A stretch of DNA of 64,000 nt, from the NCBI RefSeq assembly GCF_002934365.1, contig NZ_PTIY01000005.1:1-64000 (forward strand). The letters are read 5' to 3'. The translations under genes were made by a program, and so were the position numbers. Below are positions 32,057-44,448 of the stretch, piece after piece (the stretch's first letter is position 1; each line of letters starts with the position of its first letter). Under the pieces are notes generated by a model. It searched no databases and was not told the origin of the DNA. It worked only from the letters and a program-made list of their open reading frames with translations. This DNA is from Methylobacter tundripaludum. Lineage in GTDB: Bacteria > Pseudomonadota > Gammaproteobacteria > Methylococcales > Methylomonadaceae.

Positions 32057-32767
32057 TTAAAAGTTGATAAACAACGATCCCATAATCAAGTGATGCATGG
32101 TGTTATTGGTGTGTGTCGCATCATCCAGATACTGGTTCAGATAACCGGCTTCAGCCCGGAAGCTTTTATTAAAGGTCCAACCCAATCCTGCAAACGCGCG
32201 GTTCTGATCGAAACCGGACTGGCCGCCGAATTGGGTTGAGTTAACCCTGATGAAAAACTCGTCCCAGGTAATCAGGCTCAAACGCGGCTCGAACGCTAAA
32301 GGATGCATGAATCGCAGCATCTGACGCGGGCGGAAACGAACGTCATTGCCATTTAGGTAGTTGCTTTCGAATAGAGTCCTAAAAGTAAAAGTTCCGACAC
32401 TGGTGGGCAGGACATAGCGAAACGCCGGCCAGACATCTTGTTGGGAAACATAACTCTTCCCGCTATTTTGTGTAGGCAGCCATGTGTAGCCTGCCCAGAT
32501 GGTTGCCCGATCACTGAGCGAATAACCCACTGCGGCGCGAACCATACCTTGATTCCAATGATTCCAGTTGTCGTCGAATCGGGATTGGCCTTCCAGCCAG
32601 AGTCGTCCTTTTTCCAGTTTTGGATCCACGACTTTCAGGCTGCCCTCGCCCACGATTTGCATCCAGCTGCCGGCATCCTCAAGCAAGTCACCGGCCATAG
32701 CGGGCATGCTGACAGAACCCACCATCACGGCGGCGATTCCCCCTAGCTGCATTTTTTTCTTGATCAT
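32057..32767 (-). CDS. DUF2490 outer-membrane beta-barrel-like protein
   Basis: A 236-residue secreted protein with a signal peptide ending SMPAMA before GDLLEDA. Alternating aromatic beta-strands (GRLWLEGQSRFDDNW, AAVGYSLSDRATIWAGYTW, TFRTLFESNY) and a terminal strand ending LFINF are typical of an outer-membrane barrel. The DUF2490 pattern (WLEGQ.R near the start, YLNQY near the end) fits. Function unknown; it is not obviously part of the downstream hyf operon. Confidence 0.8.
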   Translation of the reverse strand: MIKKKMQLGGIAAVMVGSVSMPAMAGDLLEDAGSWMQIVGEGSLKVVDPKLEKGRLWLEGQSRFDDNWNHWNQGMVRAAVGYSLSDRATIWAGYTWLPTQNSGKSYVSQQDVWPAFRYVLPTSVGTFTFRTLFESNYLNGNDVRFRPRQMLRFMHPLAFEPRLSLITWDEFFIRVNSTQFGGQSGFDQNRAFAGLGWTFNKSFRAEAGYLNQYLDDATHTNNTMHHLIMGSLFINF

Positions 32768-32943: not shown

Positions 32944-33477
32944 TCATTTTTCAACGGTCATCAATCCCAGCAATCCCTTCATCAACGCCACTGGCGTAGG
33001 CGGGCAGCCGGGAATCACCGCATCGACCGGAATGACATTGGATACCGTGCCGCAACTGGCGTAAGACACGCCGAATTCGCCGCCGCAGGCCGCGCAATCA
33101 CCGGCAGCAACCACCCATTTCGGGTTGGGCGTCGCTTCATAAGTGCGCAGCAGGGCGGTTTGCATGTGTCTTGATACCGGCCCGGTGACCAACAGCACGT
33201 CGGCGTGTCTTGGCGAGGCGACAAAATGAACGCCGAAACGCTCAATATCGTAAAAGGAATTATTCAGCGCGTGAATCTCCAGTTCGCAGCCGTTACAGGA
33301 GCCCGCATCGACCTGCCTTATCGCAATGCTGCCGGAAAACCGCTTGTCTATGTGTCGTTTGATCTGAATGCCCAAAGCCTCCAGCTCGTCCTCGTTCCCA
33401 CGCTCTGCGTGGGAACGCATGCTAATCCGTTCGGTGACAATACCCGTGGTCAGGATTTTTTTAAAAAGTCTCAGCAT
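32944..33477 (-). CDS. hyfI: HyfI/NuoB-like [4Fe-4S] subunit with an in-frame repeat insertion
   Basis: A 177-residue protein of the NuoB/HycG family that carries the terminal iron-sulfur cluster of complex-I-like enzymes. Ligand motifs are present: GSCNGCELE (Cys61, Cys64), GDCAACGG (Cys128, Cys131), Cys142 and PGCPP (Cys158). Residues 20-29 read MRSHAERGNE, the translation of a dispersed palindrome (33393-33417) inserted in frame in the N-terminal linker. It is the last gene of the operon. Confidence 0.85.
   Translation of the reverse strand: MLRLFKKILTTGIVTERISMRSHAERGNEDELEALGIQIKRHIDKRFSGSIAIRQVDAGSCNGCELEIHALNNSFYDIERFGVHFVASPRHADVLLVTGPVSRHMQTALLRTYEATPNPKWVVAAGDCAACGGEFGVSYASCGTVSNVIPVDAVIPGCPPTPVALMKGLLGLMTVEK
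33393..33417. repeat. Dispersed palindrome inside the hyfI coding region
   Basis: CGTTCCCACGC, TCT, GCGTGGGAACG: a perfect 11-bp stem with a 3-base loop. It keeps the reading frame of hyfI open. Confidence 0.9.
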
Positions 33478-33486
33478 TTTCCGGTC

Positions 33487-35061
33487 CTATAGATCATTGC
33501 CTGAATAAGAGCCGTTCAGGGATTTGTTGCACACGGGAAAATCCGGCACGATATTATTCAATACCAGCTTTTCCAACGCGGGCCAGTTCAATTGGCTGGG
33601 ATCGCGCGGATAAAAACGGGCGATTTTATTGTCGGCGTCAAAGCGAATGTGGCTGATAATCTCGCCTCGCCAACCCTCGACAATGCCAAGGCCTTCACTG
33701 CCCGCCTCAGGCGTTCGCCATTCGCTGCGTAGTTCACCGGTTGCCAGCTTGTCGATAAAGTTTTCTATCAGCCGCAAAGCCGTCCTGATTTCCTTGTACC
33801 TAATCCATACTCTGGAGGCAATATCGCCCTGATTTTCCAGTGCGACTTTAACCGTTACCCGATCATAAGGCGCATAAGGCGCATCGCGGCGCACATCCCT
33901 ATCCTGGCCGCTGGCCCGTCCGACGTAACCCACGACGCCAAAAGCCGTAGCGGTTTGTTCGGACAAAAAACCGGCCGTGTACAGCCGGTCTTCCAGCGAT
34001 GAATTAAGATCCATAGCCAGTATGACTTCCGTCAGTTCGGTTCTTAATTCGTCTATTTCCTTCTTGATTAAACTACAGGATGCATCCGGCAAGTCGCAGG
34101 CAACGCCGCCGGGAACGATTTTATCCATCAACAGCCGATGGCCGAACACCGTCGCATTGGTGCGCAGCCAAAGTTCGCGCAAACGGGTGAACTGCATTTG
34201 CGCGAATACAAAAGCGACATCATTACAGATTGCGCCGATATCGCCCATGTGGTTGGCGACGCGTTCCCGTTCGGCCAGAATGCCGCGTATCAAAGCCGCG
34301 CGGGGCGGTATTTCAACGCCCGCCGCCTGTTCCATAGCCATGCAGGCGGCCCAGCAATGTCCGACCGTGGTATCGCCGGAGACGCGTCCGGCGAGCTTGG
34401 CTAAAGACTCGGGCGTTCTGCCTTCGGCGATTTTCTCTATGCCTTTATGCACATAACCCAAACGTTCTTCCAAATTCAGGATAAGTTCTCCGACGGCCTG
34501 AAACCTGAAATGTCCGGGCTCGATGATGCCTGCATGCACAGGACCTACCGGAATTTCATAAACGCCCGCGCCGTGGGATTTGATGAACGGATAATGCATA
34601 TCTGGCGGCGTGACGCCTACCGGCGCACCCTGAACAGGAAAGTCTTTCCGTAACGGATAGCTGTTTTCGATCCAGGCTTGATGCCGCGTCCAACGCCGGT
34701 TATCGGGATGTCCGACAAATTTAATCCCGAATAGGTCTTGCGTATGCCGCTCGCTGCGGTTGGCCGCAGGATAGACCGTGGCTTGGCTCGGCAGCTCCGG
34801 GTTGGTCTCGTCAATGATCGTGCGCAGCAGGACATACTCGCCTTGTTTTTCAAAACAGCTATTGACGAAGAATTGCTTATCAAGCTGTTCCGCCCATCCG
34901 GCGGCCCAACGCAGGTTTTGCTGCTGGGCCAATTCTGCAAATCGCCGCCATGTGCGGCTTTCGATTTGCCACAGCGTAATTGAAGGTACGTCGATACGGT
35001 CAACCCTTATGTCGGCACTTAAGCGGCTTAGAAAATCCGCAGTCCAGTTTGAAGAACTCAT
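33487..35061 (-). CDS. hyfG: HyfG/NuoCD-like large subunit lacking NiFe ligands
   Basis: About 524 residues from the ATG at 35061, which overlaps the hyfF stop as ATGA; the 112-residue frame extension upstream is a shadow of hyfF. The N-terminal third is NuoC-like (ERHTQDLFGIKFVGHPD, PLRKDFP); the rest is NuoD/HycE-like (GPVHAGIIEPGHFRF, YVHKGIEKIAEGR). Where hydrogenases have CxxC after RV, this protein reads RVSGDT, and its C-terminus reads NGSYSGNDL in place of DPCxxC. All four NiFe ligands are therefore absent, so it is not a hydrogenase. Confidence 0.88.
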   Translation of the reverse strand: MSSSNWTADFLSRLSADIRVDRIDVPSITLWQIESRTWRRFAELAQQQNLRWAAGWAEQLDKQFFVNSCFEKQGEYVLLRTIIDETNPELPSQATVYPAANRSERHTQDLFGIKFVGHPDNRRWTRHQAWIENSYPLRKDFPVQGAPVGVTPPDMHYPFIKSHGAGVYEIPVGPVHAGIIEPGHFRFQAVGELILNLEERLGYVHKGIEKIAEGRTPESLAKLAGRVSGDTTVGHCWAACMAMEQAAGVEIPPRAALIRGILAERERVANHMGDIGAICNDVAFVFAQMQFTRLRELWLRTNATVFGHRLLMDKIVPGGVACDLPDASCSLIKKEIDELRTELTEVILAMDLNSSLEDRLYTAGFLSEQTATAFGVVGYVGRASGQDRDVRRDAPYAPYDRVTVKVALENQGDIASRVWIRYKEIRTALRLIENFIDKLATGELRSEWRTPEAGSEGLGIVEGWRGEIISHIRFDADNKIARFYPRDPSQLNWPALEKLVLNNIVPDFPVCNKSLNGSYSGNDL

Positions 35062-36521
35062 AACGGCGTGCTCCCGGAGATTAACAGTGTCGCTTGTGAA
35101 AACCAGTGCGCCAAGAAGCCGGGGATGGCCAGCCCCAGCCATAGCACCAAGGCCAGATGTATCGTGACCGGCCATAAGTTGGCTGTAATCGGTTTTTGAC
35201 CTTCGGGGCTGTCGCCGTAAACCATCGGTTGTATATGCCTGAACAGTCCCGCAAAGGCGATGCCGATACCCAGCAACAGCAACGGCGCCAACCAGGGATA
35301 ACTGTGCATGGTCGCCAGCAGCACCAGAAACTCGCTGGTAAACACGCCGAACGGCGGAAATCCGGCAATCGAAATAGTACCGATCAACAGCCCCCAACCG
35401 ATCTTGGGCTGGGTTTTAATCAAGCCGCGGATCTGTTCTATACGCTGGGTTCCGGCAAGCTGCGCCGCATGGCCTACCGTCACAAAGATGGCCGACTTGG
35501 TTAGCGAATGTACGGTCATGTGCAGCAACGCGGCAAACGTGGCCAAGGGGCCGCCGATGCCGAACGCAAACGTCATCAGCCCCATGTGCTCGATGGACGA
35601 GTAACTGAACAATCGTTTAATATCTTTCTGCCGGTGCAGCAGTATCGCGGCCACCAGAAACGACAGCATGCCGAAGCCCATCATCAGGTAACCCGCCATA
35701 CTGGAATGCGCGGCGCCATCGACCAGCATTTTATTGCGCACCACGGCGTACAGGGCGTCGTTTAACAGTAATCCCGATAACACAGCAGACATCGGCGTCG
35801 GGCCTTCGGAATGGGCATCGGGCAACCAGTTATGCAAAGGTACCAAACCGATTTTTGTACCGTAACCGATCAGCAAGAAAACGAAGGCGATTTCAAGAAT
35901 TTCCGGGTTTAATTTATCGGCGTTTTCGTAAAGCACCGACCACAGCAAGGCGTTTTCCCCGTCGCCGATCTGCACCGCCGCGTAATACAGCAAGATGGTG
36001 CCGAACAGGGCTTGGGCAATGCCCACGCCGCAGAGAATAAAGTACTTCCACGCCGCCTCGATAGACTCCGGCGTGCGGTACAAACTGACCAGCAACACGG
36101 TTGCCAGCGTTGCGCCTTCCATCGCCACCCACATGATGCCCATGTTATTGGTCGTCAACACCAGATACATGGCCAGCATAAAACCCTGGAACATCGAGTG
36201 GTACAGTTTCAAGCGGTTGTCGGTGAGCTTGCCGATTTCCTTTTCATGCGCCATATAGGGCGAGGAAAATATCGACGTGGTGAAGCCGACGAAAGCCGTC
36301 AACACAATCAGATACACATTAAACGGATCGATTAAAAAAGCTTTGCCCGACGAGATGATCGTGCCTTGATTGAGCACGTTGATTGCCAGCCAGACAGTCG
36401 CCAATAAACAGACGCCGTTGAACCGGACATTGAGCTTGCCGCTGTCCGTCCTGTGCCCTGCCAGCGCAAAATAGAATATGCCGACCAAGGGTATCAGTAA
36501 GACCAAATAAGCGGCGATCAT
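35058..36521 (-). CDS. hyfF: HyfF-like proton-channel subunit (NuoN/L family)
   Basis: A 487-residue antiporter-like membrane subunit with about 13-14 helices. The characteristic Lys-containing segment GYGTKIGLVPLHNWLPDAH and the following PTPMSAVLSGLLLNDALY are clear, so a proton path is probably intact. It overlaps the upstream hyfE by 4 bases and the downstream hyfG. One of two such pumps in the operon, the other being HyfB. Confidence 0.9.
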   Translation of the reverse strand: MIAAYLVLLIPLVGIFYFALAGHRTDSGKLNVRFNGVCLLATVWLAINVLNQGTIISSGKAFLIDPFNVYLIVLTAFVGFTTSIFSSPYMAHEKEIGKLTDNRLKLYHSMFQGFMLAMYLVLTTNNMGIMWVAMEGATLATVLLVSLYRTPESIEAAWKYFILCGVGIAQALFGTILLYYAAVQIGDGENALLWSVLYENADKLNPEILEIAFVFLLIGYGTKIGLVPLHNWLPDAHSEGPTPMSAVLSGLLLNDALYAVVRNKMLVDGAAHSSMAGYLMMGFGMLSFLVAAILLHRQKDIKRLFSYSSIEHMGLMTFAFGIGGPLATFAALLHMTVHSLTKSAIFVTVGHAAQLAGTQRIEQIRGLIKTQPKIGWGLLIGTISIAGFPPFGVFTSEFLVLLATMHSYPWLAPLLLLGIGIAFAGLFRHIQPMVYGDSPEGQKPITANLWPVTIHLALVLWLGLAIPGFLAHWFSQATLLISGSTPL

Positions 36522-37195
36522 TTATCCACCTCGTTTAACTTGTTTAACAGATCGACATCCAGCGAGTCGATACTGGTGCGTATATGCAGGAAAAAAATGC
36601 CGAACAGCACCGCAGCCACCAATACGTCGAACGCAACGCCCAGCTCAACGACCATCGGCATGCCGTTGGTGGCGACGATGGCCGCGAAAAACAAACCGTT
36701 TTCTATCGACATAAAGCCGACCACATGAGCGATAGCCTGCCGGTGTGAAATCATCAGCAACATGCCCAGCAGCATGACCGAAAGACTGACCGCCAACGCA
36801 TTCAGCATGACGACCGATGAGGATTGCACAACAGGATGCAGCACGTAATAACTGAACACCATCAGACTGGCTCCGCCCATCATCACGGCGGTGTTGTTTT
36901 TTAAGGCTTCAATATCGCGATGCATATTCATTTGCAAAACCTGCCGCCTTAACATCCACGGGATAAAAATCACTTTCAGCACCAGAGTCAGCACCGCGGA
37001 AATATACAGATGATTGTTATTCAGGCTGTATGCCGCCACCGCCGTGGTCAGGGTTAATAAAAAGCCCTGCAACGCAAACACAAAGATCAGCCGCAGCAAC
37101 CTTCCCTGCCCTAGCATAAGGAATGATGTCAGTCCGACCAATGCGGCCATCGATAAAATAGCCTGGGTATAAAAATCCAATTGTTCAATGTTCAT
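36518..37195 (-). CDS. hyfE: HyfE-like membrane subunit (NuoK-related)
   Basis: A 225-residue protein with about seven membrane segments. The second half (AIAHVVGFMSIENGLFFAAI) carries the NuoK-type conserved Glu in a membrane helix, and the end is a charged tail (DSLDVDLLNKLNEVDK). It sits between the hyfC and hyfF genes as in hydrogenase-4 operons. A 97-base gap with a large hairpin separates it from hyfC. Confidence 0.88.
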   Translation of the reverse strand: MNIEQLDFYTQAILSMAALVGLTSFLMLGQGRLLRLIFVFALQGFLLTLTTAVAAYSLNNNHLYISAVLTLVLKVIFIPWMLRRQVLQMNMHRDIEALKNNTAVMMGGASLMVFSYYVLHPVVQSSSVVMLNALAVSLSVMLLGMLLMISHRQAIAHVVGFMSIENGLFFAAIVATNGMPMVVELGVAFDVLVAAVLFGIFFLHIRTSIDSLDVDLLNKLNEVDK

Positions 37196-37219
37196 GAGTA
37201 AGATTCCAAAAAGGCGAAG

Positions 37220-37281
37220 GGCAAAGGACGAAAGGCTAAAGGCCGGATTTGATGCTCGGTTTTCGCCTTTCGTCCTTTGCC
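37220..37281. repeat. 17-bp perfect inverted repeat within the hyf operon
   Basis: GGCAAAGGACGAAAGGC (37220-37236) pairs exactly with its inverted copy at 37265-37281. It is in the only sizeable intercistronic gap of the operon, between hyfC and hyfE. Confidence 0.85.
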
Positions 37282-37292
37282 TTTTGCCTTCT

Positions 37293-38237
37293 TCATCGCG
37301 CCGCCTCCAAAATGATGTGGCTCAACATCCCCAATAACCCCAACAAATAAGCGAAACTCAAATATTCCTGCACCCGGAACAGGCGCATTTTGGCAAACAG
37401 CGTCTCCGCTATCGCCAGGAATATCGACAACACCGCAAGCTTAGCGATGATAGCCAGCAGGCCGTAGCCTAAGGCTTGAGCGCCCAGGGTATCGGCGATG
37501 CCCCAGGGGAGAAAGATATTGGCGATCAGTACGCCGTACAGCATCAGCTTCAACTGACTCGCCCACTCGATCAGCGCCAGATGACGGCCGCTGTATTCGA
37601 GAATCATCGCTTCATGAATCATGGTCAGCTCCAGATGCGTCGCCGGATTATCCACCGGAATGCGCCCGGTTTCAGCGACGGCGACCAGTACCAGGGCTGC
37701 TAACGCGAATACAAACGAAGGCCGCAAAACCAAGCCTTCATTGAGTACATGGCTGATAGCGAACGATAAATTGGTCGTTGAGGCGGTCATGGTCAGTGTA
37801 AAAACAGCCATCAACATCGCAGGTTCCGCCAGCGATGAGATGGTCATTTCCCGCGAAGAACCCATACCGCCGAATGCGGTGCCGACGTCGAGGCCCGCCA
37901 GCGCCAGGAAAAATCGGGCGAACGCGAAAAAACCCACCATCACAATCACATCGGCGCTGGCCGAAGTCGGCAAATCGACCGCAATCAGCGGCACAACCGT
38001 CGCCGCCAGCACGGTTGCCGAAAAGATAATGTACGGCGCTTTGATAAACAGCCATGAGGCCTGTTCCGAGACTACCGGCTGTTTATTGGTTAATTTAATT
38101 AAGTCCCGGTAAGGCTGGAATAAGGACGGCGCTTTACGGTTTTGCAACCGGCATTTGCAGCACTTGACCCACCCCGCCAATAACGGCGCCAGCGCGACAA
38201 ACAGCGTGGTTTGTAAAATAGCGATTAACCAGTTCAT
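37293..38237 (-). CDS. hyfC: HyfC-like membrane subunit (NuoH family)
   Basis: About 314 residues from the ATG at 38237, which overlaps the hyfB stop as TGATG; an ATG at 38252 is an alternative. About eight membrane helices. It holds the NuoH-type loop RKAPSLFQPYRDLIKL and the acidic segments VAVAETGRIPVDNPATHLELTM and HEAMILEYSGRHLALIEW. It anchors the peripheral arm (HyfG, HyfI) to the membrane pumps. In complex I this subunit helps form the quinone cavity. Confidence 0.9.
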   Translation of the reverse strand: MNWLIAILQTTLFVALAPLLAGWVKCCKCRLQNRKAPSLFQPYRDLIKLTNKQPVVSEQASWLFIKAPYIIFSATVLAATVVPLIAVDLPTSASADVIVMVGFFAFARFFLALAGLDVGTAFGGMGSSREMTISSLAEPAMLMAVFTLTMTASTTNLSFAISHVLNEGLVLRPSFVFALAALVLVAVAETGRIPVDNPATHLELTMIHEAMILEYSGRHLALIEWASQLKLMLYGVLIANIFLPWGIADTLGAQALGYGLLAIIAKLAVLSIFLAIAETLFAKMRLFRVQEYLSFAYLLGLLGMLSHIILEAAR

Positions 38238-40360
38238 CAGCTGATCACCCATAACATAATAATTAAGGTCACAAACGAATAACCCAGATAAACCCGGATA
38301 TTTCCGGTTTGAATGCGCCCGACCAGTTTGGCTAAACGGTTTACCGCGTGTTCAATCGGTTCATATAAACGCGGCCAACTATGATCCTGAACCTCCAAGT
38401 GATAATGAACCGCCGCCACATCCTGGTTCATCGCGCCTTGCATGTCTTTTTCTATCCGTTCGTCAATAATCCAGACGCTGCGGAAAATACGCCGGAACGG
38501 CATCGTAAAAGCGCTGCTGGTGTATTGCATTTTCGATGTCAAACCGCCAAAACCGCAATCCCAGGTTTCGGCGGTACGCAACGCCGTTGCGGGATTGCGC
38601 CGCAAGTACCAAAAACTGATGCAGCCGGCAATCAGCGCACCGATCAAAACCAAAGGCGGGGCGTAAGACGCTTGCTGACTGGAAACCGGCGCCAGCCACA
38701 ACCAGCTTAAAGCCGCATCATTCGGCAGGGTTTCGCCTAACAATTGCCCGGCGACATTATTGATCAGGCCGATAATCAAGCCGGGGAAAATGCCGAACAA
38801 AAAACACAAACCGGCCAGCAAAGAAGGCCCGGCCAGCATGCCTTTATCCTGAATCTCGTGCGCTTTCTCACAATGCTGCGAACGGGGCAGTCCCAAGAAG
38901 ATCAAGCCGAATACCTTGACAAAACAGGCGGCCGCCAATGCCGCGGTCAGCGCTAATGCCGCGGCGGCGACCGGTATCAAGCTGCGCAACACGCCGTTGT
39001 CGAGCACATCGACCTGCAATGCGGTCTGAAAAGCCAGCCATTCCGAAACAAAACCGTTGAACAAAGGTAATGACGAAATACTCATACAGCCGATCAAAAA
39101 CAGCATGCTGGTTTTCGGCATCTTGTTAATCAGCCCGCCCATCATGTCGATGTTTAGCTGATGGGTTTGATGGTGAATAATGCCCGCGCCCAGAAACAGC
39201 AGATTCTTGAACAGCGCATGATTGAAGGCATGAAGCAACGCCGCCAAAAAACCCAGCGCCGCCAGTTGCGGATGGCCGTTGGCCATGAAGATCATCGACA
39301 GCCCCAGCACCATAAAAATAATGCCGATGTTTTCGACCGAACTGTAGGCCAAAAGCCGCTTTAAATTGGGTTGCATCATCGCATACAAGATGCCGCCCAG
39401 CGCCGATACGGCGCCCAATACCAACAACACCACGCCCCATTGCCAATGCACCTCGCCGAGTAAATCGAAGCAAAAACGGATCAGCCCGTAGACTGCGACT
39501 TTAAGCATCACTCCGCTCATCAACGCGGAAATATGAGAAGGCGCAACCGGATGCGCTTCCGGCAACCAGACATGCACCGGGACAATCCCGGCTTTCATGC
39601 CGAATCCCAGCAGCGCCAGCATAAAGGCGATGCCGGCCCAGGTTGTCGACAGCTTCGCCTCACGCAAGGCGTCGAAGGTAAAGCCGTCGGAAAAAGCGGC
39701 CAGTACGCCAAAGCCCAGAATAATGGCCAGGGCGCCGACTTCCGCCATCAATAAATAGATAAAAGCGGCGCGGCGATTGGCCGGATTTTCATGTTGGAAC
39801 GCGACCAGGAAATAACTGGCGACCGACATCAACTCCCAGGCGATCATGAAAAAGAACGCATCATCGGCCAGCAGCACCAGCAACATCCCGGCAACAAACA
39901 GTCCGGTAAATAAGCCCAGAACCGCAAAAGGATGTCGGTTTTCGTCGTAACTGTTCGCGTAGCCGGGCCCGTAAAGGCTGACTGCGCTCACAGCGATACC
40001 GATAATTAGAAAGAAGAAGCCGGACAAACTGTCAAAACGCACATGCCAGGGCAGCCAGGGCAACCCCAAACTGATCTGGTCGGTAATAACCGTTTTGCCG
40101 ATCAGTACACCCAACCCGGCCAATACCGCGAACACACCGGACAAACCCAGTAAAACAAACACCGAGAATCTTAGAAAAGGCGGAAAACGCTGTTCTTCAA
40201 GATTTTTACCAAGCCAATCCGGGCCATGCCCGGCTTTAAAGAATGTCTTAACAGCGTACCGCTTTACGGCTAACAGCATGTCCCGCCGATTCATCAGCAA
40301 CGCCAGCAAGCCGGACGCAAAGCTTAACAGTACCGCACAATAAGCGGATATAAGGATCAT
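38237..40360 (-). CDS. hyfB: HyfB-like proton-channel subunit (NuoL family)
   Basis: About 707 residues from the ATG at 40360, with GGAGAG upstream; the longer frame would use TTG. About 16 membrane helices. LLGFGMKAGIVPVHVWLPEAH and SHISALMSGVMLKVAVYG hold the conserved Lys/His path, and AWELMSVASYFLVAFQ the conserved Glu. A C-terminal extension with amphipathic regions follows. It starts 47 bases after the SulP gene, consistent with one transcript. Confidence 0.9.
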   Translation of the reverse strand: MILISAYCAVLLSFASGLLALLMNRRDMLLAVKRYAVKTFFKAGHGPDWLGKNLEEQRFPPFLRFSVFVLLGLSGVFAVLAGLGVLIGKTVITDQISLGLPWLPWHVRFDSLSGFFFLIIGIAVSAVSLYGPGYANSYDENRHPFAVLGLFTGLFVAGMLLVLLADDAFFFMIAWELMSVASYFLVAFQHENPANRRAAFIYLLMAEVGALAIILGFGVLAAFSDGFTFDALREAKLSTTWAGIAFMLALLGFGMKAGIVPVHVWLPEAHPVAPSHISALMSGVMLKVAVYGLIRFCFDLLGEVHWQWGVVLLVLGAVSALGGILYAMMQPNLKRLLAYSSVENIGIIFMVLGLSMIFMANGHPQLAALGFLAALLHAFNHALFKNLLFLGAGIIHHQTHQLNIDMMGGLINKMPKTSMLFLIGCMSISSLPLFNGFVSEWLAFQTALQVDVLDNGVLRSLIPVAAAALALTAALAAACFVKVFGLIFLGLPRSQHCEKAHEIQDKGMLAGPSLLAGLCFLFGIFPGLIIGLINNVAGQLLGETLPNDAALSWLWLAPVSSQQASYAPPLVLIGALIAGCISFWYLRRNPATALRTAETWDCGFGGLTSKMQYTSSAFTMPFRRIFRSVWIIDERIEKDMQGAMNQDVAAVHYHLEVQDHSWPRLYEPIEHAVNRLAKLVGRIQTGNIRVYLGYSFVTLIIMLWVIS

Positions 40361-40407
40361 AAAATTCTCACTCTCCAAAGGCCGGGTTACGACAACCCAA
40401 CCGAAAT

Positions 40408-42009
40408 CTACAATTGTTTTCTATCATCAGGAGTCATCAGTCTCGCTGCGAGCGCATGGTCTGAAAACGTTTCCAAGGCTTTGCCGACTTTCCTGCATTG
40501 GCCGCCCTGAGCCTCATAGTTCCGCTTGAAGTCATGGATAAACTCCATAACGGTATGATCGATCATGTAGCCGTCTGTAAAATCGAAAATAATCGTTTTG
40601 CCTTTTTCCAACTGGTTCAGCGCTTTTTTCAGCGGCAGGAAATTCGAAAACAGCGCCGAACCCAATAGCTTGATAACCAGCGTATCGTTATCTTGTCGCT
40701 GGACAGTAAAGTGAATCTTGAACAAGTTGTTGGGCCAAACGCCCCTGACCAGATTAATCGCAAGTTTTACAACAATTCCCAAAGCGACGCCGACCAGCAA
40801 GTCTGTCGCCAATACGCCGATAATCGTGACCACAAATATAAACAATTGTTCCTTGCCGACCTCTTTTACCCGGTAAAAGGTTTCAGGCGAAGCCAAACGA
40901 TAGCCGGTGTAAACCAGCAATGCGGCCAAAGAGGCTAACGGAATGCTGTTGATAAGGCCTGGAAACAGAACCACAAACACCAACAAGAACAAGCCGTGAA
41001 AGAAATTGGACCACGTTGTTTTGGCGCCGTTATTGACATTCTCCGAACTGCGCACAATTTCGGCGATCATCGGCAAGCCGCCAATGAAACCGGCAACGAT
41101 ATTACCCAGCCCGACTGCCGTTAAATCGCGGTCAAGATCGGAAGAGCGCTTGCAAGGATCGAGCTTGTCTATCGCCGTCGTGCTCAGCAAGCTTTCAAGA
41201 CTGCCGACTAGGCTGATGCTGAACACGGCTTCCCAAAAAGCTAGGCTGAACAGCTTGGAAAAATCGGGAAAATAAAAGTCGGCCGAAAAGTCTTCGGAAA
41301 TAGACACCAGGAATTTCGCCCCGCCAACAGCCGCATCCTGAGCCAGGTTAAAATGCCAGGCAAATACGACCCCCACCAGCACGACAATGATCGGAGCGGG
41401 AATCTTGCTGCCGATGAACGGCCAAATAACGAGTACGAGTAAACCTAAGAAGCTGATCAGGCCGATTTCCGCATTCATGCCAAGCAAACTGTGCGGAATC
41501 TGCGCGATAACCGAAAACAGGTTGCCGGACTCCGGCGTTACGCCGAGCATGACGTGGGTTTGCGTGGCGATGATAATAATGCCGATCGCCGCCAGCATTC
41601 CATGCACCACCGAGGTGGGGAAAAATGAGCTGAGTTGTCCCAGTTTAAACACCCCCATCAGAACCTGTAAAACGCTGGCCACCACAATCGCCGCCAGGGT
41701 ATAACGGTAACCGGCCATCGCATCGCCTTCGCCCAACGCTTGTACCGCCGCCAAAACCACCACAATCAGCCCGGCGGCCGGGCCGTTGATGGTCAAGTAC
41801 GAGCCGCTGATACGCGATACCAATACCCCGCCGATAATCGCCGTGATAATGCCGGCCGACGGCGGAAAACCTGAAGCCACGGATATGCCCAGGCACAGCG
41901 GCAAAGCGATCAGAAAGACCAGGAATCCTGATTGTAAATCGCCAAGCCAGTTTTCTTTTAAGCCCGCTAGGCCGGTTTTAGGTGCAGCCGATAGGGATGA
42001 TTCATTCAT
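40408..42009 (-). CDS. SulP-family anion transporter with STAS domain (copy 1)
   Basis: A 533-residue protein. The transport domain begins LPLCLGISVASGFPPSAGII and contains YLTINGPAAGLIVVVLAAVQ, the SulP signature. The C-terminal STAS domain is degenerate but present (KGKTIIFDFTDGYMIDHTVM). SulP proteins move sulfate, bicarbonate or other anions. The gene lies between a close paralogue and the hyfB-I genes. A bicarbonate role is inferred from the known association of SulP (BicA) and complex-I-like proteins with inorganic carbon uptake. Confidence 0.88.
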   Translation of the reverse strand: MNESSLSAAPKTGLAGLKENWLGDLQSGFLVFLIALPLCLGISVASGFPPSAGIITAIIGGVLVSRISGSYLTINGPAAGLIVVVLAAVQALGEGDAMAGYRYTLAAIVVASVLQVLMGVFKLGQLSSFFPTSVVHGMLAAIGIIIIATQTHVMLGVTPESGNLFSVIAQIPHSLLGMNAEIGLISFLGLLVLVIWPFIGSKIPAPIIVVLVGVVFAWHFNLAQDAAVGGAKFLVSISEDFSADFYFPDFSKLFSLAFWEAVFSISLVGSLESLLSTTAIDKLDPCKRSSDLDRDLTAVGLGNIVAGFIGGLPMIAEIVRSSENVNNGAKTTWSNFFHGLFLLVFVVLFPGLINSIPLASLAALLVYTGYRLASPETFYRVKEVGKEQLFIFVVTIIGVLATDLLVGVALGIVVKLAINLVRGVWPNNLFKIHFTVQRQDNDTLVIKLLGSALFSNFLPLKKALNQLEKGKTIIFDFTDGYMIDHTVMEFIHDFKRNYEAQGGQCRKVGKALETFSDHALAARLMTPDDRKQL

Positions 42010-42079
42010 AAAAACCCTCGTTAATTGTGAAAATAGTATGTCTATAAATAATCACTATATCACGTAGCATTGGCAGGTT

Positions 42080-43765
42080 TTATACGCCATGATGATCACT
42101 CTTGCGGCGGCTCATGTTATTCCGCTTCATTCTGCGTGCGGACAAAGGATGTTCTGAAAAAGTATCATGATATTCCATGCCAAAAAACCTGCATTGTCCT
42201 CCCTGCCTTTCGTAGTTATGCTGAAAATCATGAATAAATTCCATTACGGTATGATCGATCAGGTAGGCGTTATTCAATTGGAATATCACCGTTTTGCCGC
42301 TTTCCAGATTGGCCAGCGCGTCTTTTAAGGACATGAAGTTGGAGAAAATCGCCGCGCCGACTATCGAGACGACAACAGAATCGGCGTCTTTCGGTTCAAC
42401 AACAAAGTGAATCTTGAACAGGTTATTCGGCCTGACGCCGCGCAGCATGTGGATAGCGAACTTGGTTAAAATGCCGATGCCGACACCGACTAATAAATCG
42501 GTCTGCAAGACGCCGATAATCGTCACCACGAACATAAACAACTGTTCCTTGCCGACGCCCATGACCTTGGCGAATTCTTTAGGCGAAGCCAGACGAAAGC
42601 CGGTAAATACCAGCAATGCAGCCAACGCAGCCAACGGAATACTGTGAATCAAGCGCGGAAACAACACCACAAACAGCAACAAAAATGCGCCGTGAAAAAA
42701 GTTGGCCCAGCCGGTCTTCGCGCCATTATTTATATTGGCCGAACTACGCACGATCTCCGCTATCATCGGCAAGCCGCCGATCAAACCGGCCAGCAGATTG
42801 CCTGCGCCCACCGCCGTTAAATCGCGGTCGAAATCCGAATGGCGTCTATAAGGATCAAGTTTGTCTACCGCCATCGCGCTGAGTAAACTTTCAAGACTGC
42901 CGACCAAACAAATACTGACCACCGCCTCCCAGAATTCAAGAGTCGCCCCTTTAGAAAAGTCGGGAAAGTAAAAGCTGGACATGAAATTATCGGAAATCGC
43001 GACCAGGAATTTCGGCCCGACGGTTTCCTCGTGATGCGGCAGAAAATGGGCGTCCGGCAGGAACAGATACATGTGCTCATGCTCCAGGTCGAAATACCGG
43101 GCCAACCCCATGCCGACCAATACCACGATAAGAGGGGCCGGAATCATCTTTAAGGTTGGATTTTTTATCATCGTCCAGGCCGTCAGTATCACCAATCCCG
43201 AACCGCCGATAATGGCGATTTCAGGATTGAGATTGGCAATGCTGTGCGGAATTTGCGCGATAGTCGAAAACAGGCTGCTGCCTTTCTCCGGCGTAGTGCC
43301 CAGCACCACGTTGATTTGCTTGGCCATGATAATAATGCCGATAGCCGCCAACATGCCATGCACCACCGATGCCGGGAAAAAGGAACTGAGCCTGCCCGCT
43401 TTAAAGACGCCCATCAAAACCTGAAGCGCACTGGCGACGACGATAGCCGCCAATGCATAGCGGTAACCGGCCATCGCATCGCCTCCGCCCAGTTCCTGAA
43501 CCGCCCCCAAAACCACCACGATCAATCCGGCAGCCGGGCCGTTAATAGTTACAAATGAGCCGTTGATGCGCGAAACCAGCATCCCGCCGATAATAGCCGT
43601 GATCAGCCCCGCCGACGGCGGAAAACCGGAAGCCATTGAAATACCCAGGCACAACGGCAGAGCAATAAGAAAAACCAGAAAACCGGACAGTAAATCGCTA
43701 CGCCAGTTTTCTTTTAAACCGGCTAGACCGGATTTTGGTATCCCTGACAATGATGGCTCACTCAT
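42080..43765 (-). CDS. SulP-family anion transporter with STAS domain (copy 2, His-rich insert)
   Basis: A 561-residue close paralogue of the adjacent SulP, first gene of the probable operon. Both begin with the motif SGLAGLKENW or TGLAGLKENW and share the STAS end (IDHTVMEFIHDF). This copy carries an extra loop of about 25 residues rich in His, Glu and aromatics (EHEHMYLFLPDAHFLPHHEE) before the conserved GPKFLVAISDNF, plus a basic/His C-terminus (RRKSDHHGV). The tandem pair may form a heterodimer or give different affinities. Confidence 0.88.
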   Translation of the reverse strand: MSEPSLSGIPKSGLAGLKENWRSDLLSGFLVFLIALPLCLGISMASGFPPSAGLITAIIGGMLVSRINGSFVTINGPAAGLIVVVLGAVQELGGGDAMAGYRYALAAIVVASALQVLMGVFKAGRLSSFFPASVVHGMLAAIGIIIMAKQINVVLGTTPEKGSSLFSTIAQIPHSIANLNPEIAIIGGSGLVILTAWTMIKNPTLKMIPAPLIVVLVGMGLARYFDLEHEHMYLFLPDAHFLPHHEETVGPKFLVAISDNFMSSFYFPDFSKGATLEFWEAVVSICLVGSLESLLSAMAVDKLDPYRRHSDFDRDLTAVGAGNLLAGLIGGLPMIAEIVRSSANINNGAKTGWANFFHGAFLLLFVVLFPRLIHSIPLAALAALLVFTGFRLASPKEFAKVMGVGKEQLFMFVVTIIGVLQTDLLVGVGIGILTKFAIHMLRGVRPNNLFKIHFVVEPKDADSVVVSIVGAAIFSNFMSLKDALANLESGKTVIFQLNNAYLIDHTVMEFIHDFQHNYERQGGQCRFFGMEYHDTFSEHPLSARRMKRNNMSRRKSDHHGV

Positions 43766-44448
43766 ACAAATCCTCGTAATTATAAAAAGGTTCTGACGGG
43801 GTTGTAAGCGATTACCGTGCCAAGCTGATTTATTTTTATAATGGTCTGATTTTAATGGGAGTTTTTATTGTCAGGATAAAAGCCAGGAACTGCGGTGGTG
43901 TAAAACAACCTCTCGGTTGTTGTTTTGCACCGGTGCCGGATACTGTTGAGGGTGTTTGTTGCGCTAAGGATGTGGTTAAAAATAACTTCCCGAAATCACC
44001 ATTTTCGCTCGTCAAGCCGTTCGTGCTGAGCCCTTCGGCTACTCTCAGGAGAGCCTTGTCGAAGCATGATCGGCTTGACGCGGCGGGACGAAATTTTTCC
44101 GCCCACCCTTCGACAAGCTCAGGGCGAACGGAAAAATTTCATCCGTTCAATATCGGGAAGTTATTACTGACCATATCCTAAAGTAAATCTGGCGATATTG
44201 CGCCTTGCAGAAGCTTTATACCGGCCAAAGGCTACGGGCAGCACATGCAAAAATAGGCGGGGGATTAGGTGGAGAAAATGCGGATGCGGGCGGATCAATA
44301 AATCCGTCTTAACAATCTTGCTTAAATCGATGGAGCCACGAAAAACACGAAAACATTCAACAGGTAACCCGTGTCAGCCGAAGTGAATGGCTACTCAGCA
44401 TATGGAGCTTCGTGATTTTCGTGTCTTTCGCGGAAATCGTTCTTAAAG
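43766..44448. repeat. 683-bp non-coding region with nested inverted repeats
   Basis: It holds hairpin GGTGTAAAACAACC / GGTTGTTGTTTTGCACC (43897-43931), then CGTCAAGCCG/CGGCTTGACG (44010-44019 and 44071-44080), then GAAATTTTTCCG/CGGAAAAATTTC (44090-44101 and 44129-44140). The last encloses a common dispersed motif, CCCTTCGACAAGCTCAGGGC (44106-44125). A degenerate CACGAAAAACACGAAA-type repeat follows at about 44337. No credible gene. The operon promoter for the SulP-hyf genes should be near its left end. Confidence 0.7.

Follow-up and report, generated by a model that had tools for sequence, protein, structure and literature searches.

A SulP-linked Ehr-type gene cluster of Methylobacter tundripaludum, a candidate operon for the acquisition of dissolved inorganic carbon

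We analyzed a stretch of 64,000 nucleotides of Methylobacter tundripaludum (assembly GCF_002934365.1, contig NZ_PTIY01000005.1, positions 1 to 64,000; hereafter the window). It contains a nearly gapless minus-strand run of genes in the order SulP1-SulP2-hyfB-C-E-F-G-I, followed by a DUF2490 gene (Table 1). The initial annotation had described two SulP genes heading a same-strand hyfB, C, E, F, G, I run, and its coordinates and strand were right; it missed the DUF2490 gene, which lies 176 bp downstream of hyfI and is a member of the conserved unit. From SulP1 to HyfI, the intergenic gaps in transcription order are 70, 29, −16, 97, −4, −4, and 9 bp. The start codon of HyfB is uncertain (TTG, or ATG six codons further). 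Domains were called with Pfam and NCBIfam, which agree on the operon genes; HyfB and HyfF score above the NCBIfam cut-offs for the hydrogenase-4 subunits B and F.

Table 1. Position and supporting evidence of the features of the operon (window coordinates)
Feature	Position	Strand	Evidence
SulP1, SulP-family anion transporter, 561 aa	42080..43765	-	PF00916 E 1e-64; STAS domain below cut-off
SulP2, second SulP, 533 aa, 70% identical to SulP1	40408..42009	-	PF00916 E 5e-59
HyfB, NuoL-like antiporter subunit	38237..40378	-	NF005086 809 bits, cut-off 667
HyfC, NuoH-like	37293..38252	-	PF00146 E 2.5e-36
HyfE, hydrogenase-4 membrane subunit-like	36518..37195	-	NF008556 E 2e-22, below cut-off; no match in Pfam
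HyfF, NuoM/N-like antiporter subunit	35058..36521	-	NF005045 783 bits, cut-off 543
HyfG, NuoCD/HycE-like large subunit without NiFe ligands, 524 aa	33487..35061	-	Pfam, motif census, AlphaFold model
HyfI, NuoB-like subunit, four cluster cysteines	32944..33477	-	PF01058 E 1.3e-31
DUF2490 protein, signal peptide by eye	32057..32767	-	PF10677 E 1.7e-46
hyfC-hyfE spacer, 97 nt, strong hairpin	37196..37292	-	-44.4 kcal/mol, z -5.5
Promoter-like site upstream of SulP1	43779..43808	-	10/12 match

The large subunit HyfG carries the motif R-V-S-G-D-T and ends in S-Y-S-G-N-D-L. In alignment with E. coli HycE and HyfG, residues S228, T231, S518, and G521 occupy the four NiFe cysteine positions and there is no C-terminal extension, which bears out the earlier observation that the NiFe CxxC motifs are missing. 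A census of 145 HyfG sequences, aligned with E. coli HyfG, HycE, and NuoCD, showed S at position 228 in 139 sequences and C in two. Cysteine never occurred at position 231 (S or T in 138), 518 (S in 136), or 521 (G in 143). None of the sequences continued beyond L524; the E. coli proteins HyfG and HycE are 32 residues longer. D230 and D274 were present in all 145 sequences, D281 and N270 in 144 each, and D523 in 143. These new invariant residues at the former metal-ligand sites indicate that the HyfG/HyfI arm is not decaying. Residue G229 (G in 143/145) aligns with a tyrosine of E. coli NuoCD that we take to be the complex I quinone-site tyrosine of NuoD. An active hydrogenase was rejected as a candidate on the absence of NiFe cysteines in the window HyfG and its relatives.

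The small subunit was described initially as having kept its cluster ligands, and C61, C64, C128, and C158 were indeed present in all 92 HyfI sequences compared. The two antiporter-like subunits also retain their charged residues: among the sequences with a letter at these positions, at least 97% conserve E182, K262, K293, and K391 of HyfB (80 sequences) and E135, K223, and K342 of HyfF (93 sequences).

By sequence, E. coli HycE (7z0s, E 8e-66) is the nearest solved relative of HyfG, and an AlphaFold model of HyfG superimposed on its chain 7z0s_E with a TM score of 0.90. The mean confidence (pLDDT) of the model was 85, with values below 50 at residues 1–3, 157–202, and 519–524. In a tree rooted on NuoCD, the 145 HyfG sequences, Geobacter and Nitrospirae ones included, formed one branch apart from E. 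coli HyfG/HycE; L032, L051–L053 (so that G013 is absent), and matches below 1100 nt or 37% identity were left out (L, G, and C denote our loci, genomes, and contigs). Judged by its subunits and the loss of its ligands, HyfBCEFGI is classed here as an Ehr-type module, that is, hydrogenase-4-like with the NiFe site lost. The definition of Ehr reportedly goes back to Coppi in 2005 and Marreiros in 2013.

Neither hyfA, D, H, or J nor any ferredoxin-type or NADH-module gene was found among the open reading frames of the operon, as had been noted before for HyfA/HyfH-type and NADH-module genes; unlinked ferredoxin-type copies in the genome were not searched. The earlier remark that the complex has no known electron entry holds for the gene content of the operon, and it does not extend to whether the complex needs electrons. 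Compared with E. coli hydrogenase-4 and -3 (Hyf, formate hydrogenlyase-1), the window keeps the order B-C-E-F-G-I and a HyfG whose model matches HycE, but A, D, H, J, the NiFe cysteines, and the maturation peptide are missing. Unlike respiratory complex I, the window operon has no NuoEFG, and G229 stands at the quinone-site tyrosine position.

Ehr-type complexes are common. The full set of B, C, E, F, G, and I was found in 121 of 150 mapped hyf stretches (some of them duplicates; open reading frames were taken from codon-scored maps). Among the best 80 of at least 583 HyfG matches, the bearers included Methylococcales, Chromatiales, Nitrospirae, Geobacter, Rhodocyclaceae, Burkholderiaceae, Azospirillum, and Mesorhizobium. 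The phylum was sampled with 398 genomes, of which 73 matched HyfG at E 1e-60; 63 were counted as Ehr, the ten weaker than 1.3e-88 being set aside as true hydrogenases by score alone.

Clusters of the same six genes have already been published from other genera, with no settled function. The hyfBCEFGI cluster of Cupriavidus was considered very unlikely to have a role in lithotrophy (PMC2864759), the six-gene cluster of Acidithiobacillus ferrooxidans was classified by HydDB as non-hydrogenase (PMC7735108), and the Ehr complexes of Nitrospira lack CxxC and have a function called unknown (PMC10284858). Formate has been suggested for such complexes (PMC7735108; PMC6349859). In A. caldus, one hyf cluster adjoins a beta-carbonic anhydrase, and carbon-fixation genes are said to accompany another (PMC3826726). 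The published Ehr of Cupriavidus and A. ferrooxidans share the six gene names and the hydrogenase-4-like, non-hydrogenase character with our locus, a likeness by description and not by sequence. In the parts of those papers covered, they differ in showing no link to SulP, DAB, or DUF2490, and their function is left unsettled or guessed as formate. A literature search, mostly at title and abstract level and with few subscription journals, found no link of hyf/Ehr to SulP or DAB.

The pairing of SulP with hyf is conserved in other genomes, a point on which the initial annotation had made its proposal depend, but mainly within the order. A HyfG orthologue of at least 59% identity was found in 35 of 61 Methylococcales genomes; six of the 35 loci were unreadable (cut earlier), and in 23 of the 29 readable ones the gene immediately upstream of hyfB, in the same orientation, was a SulP (in two of the 23 a contig end falls within SulP). 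By a rough estimate from six SulPs in 4.18 Mb, chance adjacency would amount to about 0.2% per locus. In other genomes of the genus, SulP1 copies upstream of hyf are 86–93% identical, and only some loci have a second SulP. The hyf-linked SulPs make up a set at 49% identity or more; other SulPs of Methylococcales stand at 33–42% and are partly linked to carbonic anhydrase. A SulP of this set occurs somewhere in the genome in 35/35 HyfG-positive and 11/26 HyfG-negative genomes (Fisher 1e-7, uncorrected for kinship). In the 398-genome sample, SulPs of at least 55% identity were found only in the host (G000), G247, and G252, all HyfG-positive.

Six readable Methylococcales hyf loci had no intact upstream SulP (G023, G027, G029, G039, G046, and G051). 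In one of these genomes (G023, L042), degenerate SulP fragments lie directly upstream of hyfB. At L148 (G004, contig C100), a SulP1 orthologue precedes a short remnant of HyfG; the hyf run has seemingly been deleted and the SulP stays. Outside Methylococcales, 5 of 75 readable hyf loci had a SulP. The SulP of L175 is 61% identical to that of the window, and its HyfG groups with L177 of its own family. L116 and L085 have divergent SulPs, the latter between hyfG and hyfI, and in L061 and L122 one gene separates SulP from hyf. In addition, L209, also outside the order, has a SulP and then a HyfB-like gene at the contig end, and the Methylocaldum locus L075 has a SulP between hyfF and hyfG. SulP as an ancestral subunit of the complex was rejected, with 76 of 110 labelled HyfG rows lacking it (on the tree, 35 rows were left unlabelled for SulP, their upstream DNA being unreadable). 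With six Methylococcales loci lacking an intact upstream SulP, 11 HyfG-negative genomes keeping a SulP of this set, and 70 of 75 outside loci without SulP, gene content indicates that SulP is an operon partner and not an obligate subunit.

Neutral neighbours, an operon inherited within Methylococcales with no functional link, are a very improbable explanation of the pair. In favour of it, the HyfG rows labelled with SulP cluster strongly on their tree, kinship is strong, and SulP and hyf are separate in several genomes. Against it, SulP-hyf stays while the flanking genes differ, the pairing occurs in other lineages (L175, L209), and SulP lies inside the hyf run in L075 and L085.

To see the same transporters away from hyf, we fetched 20 loci with SulPs of the 49% set located outside known hyf runs (L209 later proved to be beside a HyfB-like gene). 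A dabA gene lay directly beside SulP in four of them. The order was SulP-dabA-dabB-DUF2490 in L195 and L203 and SulP-dabA-dabB in L202; in L192, dabA is divergent and SulP-DUF2490 lies on the other strand. The DUF2490 proteins of L192 and L195 are 74–75% identical to the window copy and that of L203 29%. L193 has SulP-DUF2490 with 67% identity. A histidine kinase is encoded downstream of SulP in L201, L204, and L207, with a sigma-54 regulator too in the last two; in L205, both are beside DUF2490 on the strand opposite to SulP. The same kinase/regulator pair follows hyf-DUF2490 in L040, L057, L060, and L062 (Pfam was run on the pairs of L040 and L204). The ten other loci had no dab, DUF2490, or kinase/regulator gene next to SulP.

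In the SulP tree, which leaves out the duplicates L051–L053 and SulPs with less than 48% identity or fewer than 400 aa, the four dab-linked rows were scattered among hyf-linked and unlinked ones, with four changes, three of them forced by starred branches. From this scatter and the neighbours of the fetched loci, one operon frame holds hyf, dabAB, or neither. More broadly, at least 17 of 58 DabA places in the 61 Methylococcales genomes have a SulP, of whatever type, no more than 10 kb away.

The conserved SulP-hyf pairing in Methylococcales and the same-clade SulPs beside dabA in four genomes support a theme of dissolved inorganic carbon (DIC). We consider it an even call that the locus is a DIC acquisition operon with the Hyf module in the place of DAB. 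The initial annotation had proposed anion uptake, perhaps of bicarbonate, by analogy to DAB systems with SulP; the inorganic-carbon theme stands by gene context, and SulP as an obligate part does not. The window operon and DAB/DAC (DabA-DabB) share the operon type with a same-clade SulP, partly DUF2490, and a NuoL-like channel subunit. They differ in that the Pfam scan found no DabA (PF10070) in the window operon and that nothing in DAB corresponds to HyfC, E, F, G, and I. DAB2 has been described as a carbonic anhydrase driven by the proton motive force, with a NuoL-like subunit (PMC13144422).

Under the DIC reading, the SulP proteins would import an anion, most likely bicarbonate. HyfBCEFGI combines the antiporter-like B and F with the coupling subunits C and E and an arm of two subunits; by homology, a conserved Ser/Asp-rich pocket in this arm would replace the [NiFe] site, next to one retained iron-sulfur cluster site. 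Hyf may do the job of DabA/DabB in the sister operons, using membrane energy, possibly with electron input via HyfI, to raise internal bicarbonate. It could act by one of two routes, driving CO2 hydration or powering SulP uptake. The host methanotroph would use the bicarbonate for carboxylations other than that of RuBisCO.

Bicarbonate transport by SulPs has been put forward before. A SulP adjoining carbonic anhydrase was predicted to carry bicarbonate (PMC6458275), and bicarbonate import by SulP was proposed for M. capsulatus (PMC11423575). The window SulPs share PF00916 with BicA-type SulPs, but they form the separate 49% set and score far below the NCBIfam BicA cut-off. Their best-scoring solved relative, 6ki1 (E 2.5e-23), is listed as a low affinity sulfate transporter and is presumably BicA-type. 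Unlike the SulPs linked to carbonic anhydrase, those of the window type and their hyf genes had no adjoining carbonic anhydrase in searches with two beta-carbonic anhydrase queries. As a regular hyf neighbour, this enzyme was rejected, the same two queries giving no match in the 150 stretches (other classes were not searched).

Wider links to carbon were found in two places. In L108, a Thiomonas metagenome-assembled genome (MAG), hyfBCEFGI is followed by a form II-type RuBisCO (NF010002, 909 bits) and two genes that we take, by position, to be cbbQ and cbbO, names that NCBIfam did not give. In L099 (Accumulibacter), dabA (PF10070, 796 bits) and NuoL-like matches lie behind hyfI. RuBisCO was present in 40 of 63 Ehr-positive and 76 of 335 other genomes of the sample (odds ratio 5.9, uncorrected for kinship); the ratio was 6.0 without the nameable members of family f47, whose genomes with neither gene remain among the negatives.

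Several results weigh against the DIC reading. Only four of the 20 fetched SulP loci are directly beside dabA, 70 of the 75 outside hyf loci have no SulP, and the gene context of most hyf loci is bare. Queries with DabA, RuBisCO, CbbQ/O, and the two beta-carbonic anhydrases matched in only 2 of 150 hyf stretches (L099 and L108). Kinship inflates all the co-occurrence tests, and 23 of 63 Ehr-positive genomes have no RuBisCO. None was found in the 37 genomes of the host's family; the initial annotation had listed RuBisCO as a thing to look for, and its absence from the results for the host genome (G000; 4.18 Mb, 45 contigs, 99.92% complete) makes a RuBisCO-feeding role unlikely there. A RuBisCO-linked carbon-concentrating mechanism in the host was rejected on this ground. 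The host genome also has a gene for a long DabA (C34) and, on C5, one for a fusion of SulP with carbonic anhydrase, so that the need for a hyf-SulP system is less evident. Finally, the retained cluster cysteines of HyfI suggest redox work, which is not described for DAB2 in the part of the source covered.

This last point leads to the strongest rival, which we regard as somewhat unlikely: a redox-driven Ehr ion pump, oxidizing for example formate, ferredoxin, or another reduced carrier, with SulP sharing its regulation or supplying sulfate or formate. The four cysteines in 92/92 HyfI and the conserved channel residues are consistent with such a pump, as are the suggestion of formate in print (PMC7735108; PMC6349859) and the many alpha- and betaproteobacterial loci in which the six genes have no same-strand partners. 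The operon, however, encodes neither a dehydrogenase nor a ferredoxin-type protein, the quinone tyrosine of complex I is absent, and the exchange with dabAB beside the same SulP clade would be left unexplained.

A unit for pH or ion homeostasis, with H+ or Na+ transported by the complex and charge balanced by SulP through the exchange of bicarbonate or another anion, is distinctly unlikely. It agrees with two antiporter-like subunits with conserved Lys/Glu, and SulP with carbonic anhydrase was proposed for pH control in A. ferrooxidans (PMC6458275), but a HyfG/HyfI arm with invariant residues would be superfluous for a plain antiporter.

The DIC reading can be taken one step further. Cyanobacterial NDH-1MS is a complex-I relative serving CO2 uptake. 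The Ehr complex might be a third class of energized inorganic-carbon pump beside NDH-1MS and DAB, with the former NiFe cavity (S228, D230, T231, N270, H271, D274, D281, and D523) handling CO2 in a cycle coupled to the flow of protons through HyfB/F, and with SulP and DUF2490 completing a route across both membranes; this we hold to be unlikely. The CO2-uptake complexes of the NDH-1MS type are named in PMC10880623 and PMC6458275. In contrast to them, no CupA/CupB gene was recognized in the window operon, though no search was aimed at these genes.

If a DIC role is true, an orphan family gets a function, carbon-concentrating biology a new part, and CO2 use by methanotrophs a set of genes that can be tested. 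With hyf and dabAB exchanged for each other beside one SulP clade, the DIC question can be put directly to the test by complementation.

The nearest named relatives of the host are Methylobacter MAGs. As to distant genes that could supply NiFe-type subunits, raised as a doubt in the initial annotation, matches to the NiFe-hydrogenase family (PF00374) do occur elsewhere in the host, on contigs C23 and C4, and they are separate genes. Searches with PF00346 and HyfG found no NDH-1 NuoD/NuoCD in the host besides HyfG. Many relatives show a NuoCD-like match, unlike the host, and complex I may be missing from this strain.

Scans of the window for Rfam families and tRNAs gave no hits, and promoter and terminator scans of the region gave results near chance level. 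The promoter-like site upstream of SulP1 is weak, since 14 such sites were found in the region and 11.5 expected. The hyfC-hyfE spacer varies in length among relatives and is nearly absent in some (e.g., L038), so that the hairpin spacer may be an insert specific to the lineage.

Pfam was tallied for 64 same-strand hyf neighbours, chosen from 86 listed and nearly all from outside Methylococcales (one is from L075). Helix-turn-helix families occurred in up to 7 and other families in at most 2; the L108 RuBisCO is one of the 64. A short helix-turn-helix gene, perhaps a regulator, lies directly upstream of hyfB in L066, L069, L074, L080, L106, L109, and L126. By match span, two hyfB-like copies stand in tandem ahead of hyfC in L085, L154, and L159, and a second, more divergent hyf set lies downstream in L085 and L114. 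A foreign gene separates hyfG from hyfI in L086 (11581–12429) and L114 (9620–10609), and the start of the one in L086 resembles, by eye, formyltetrahydrofolate deformylase.

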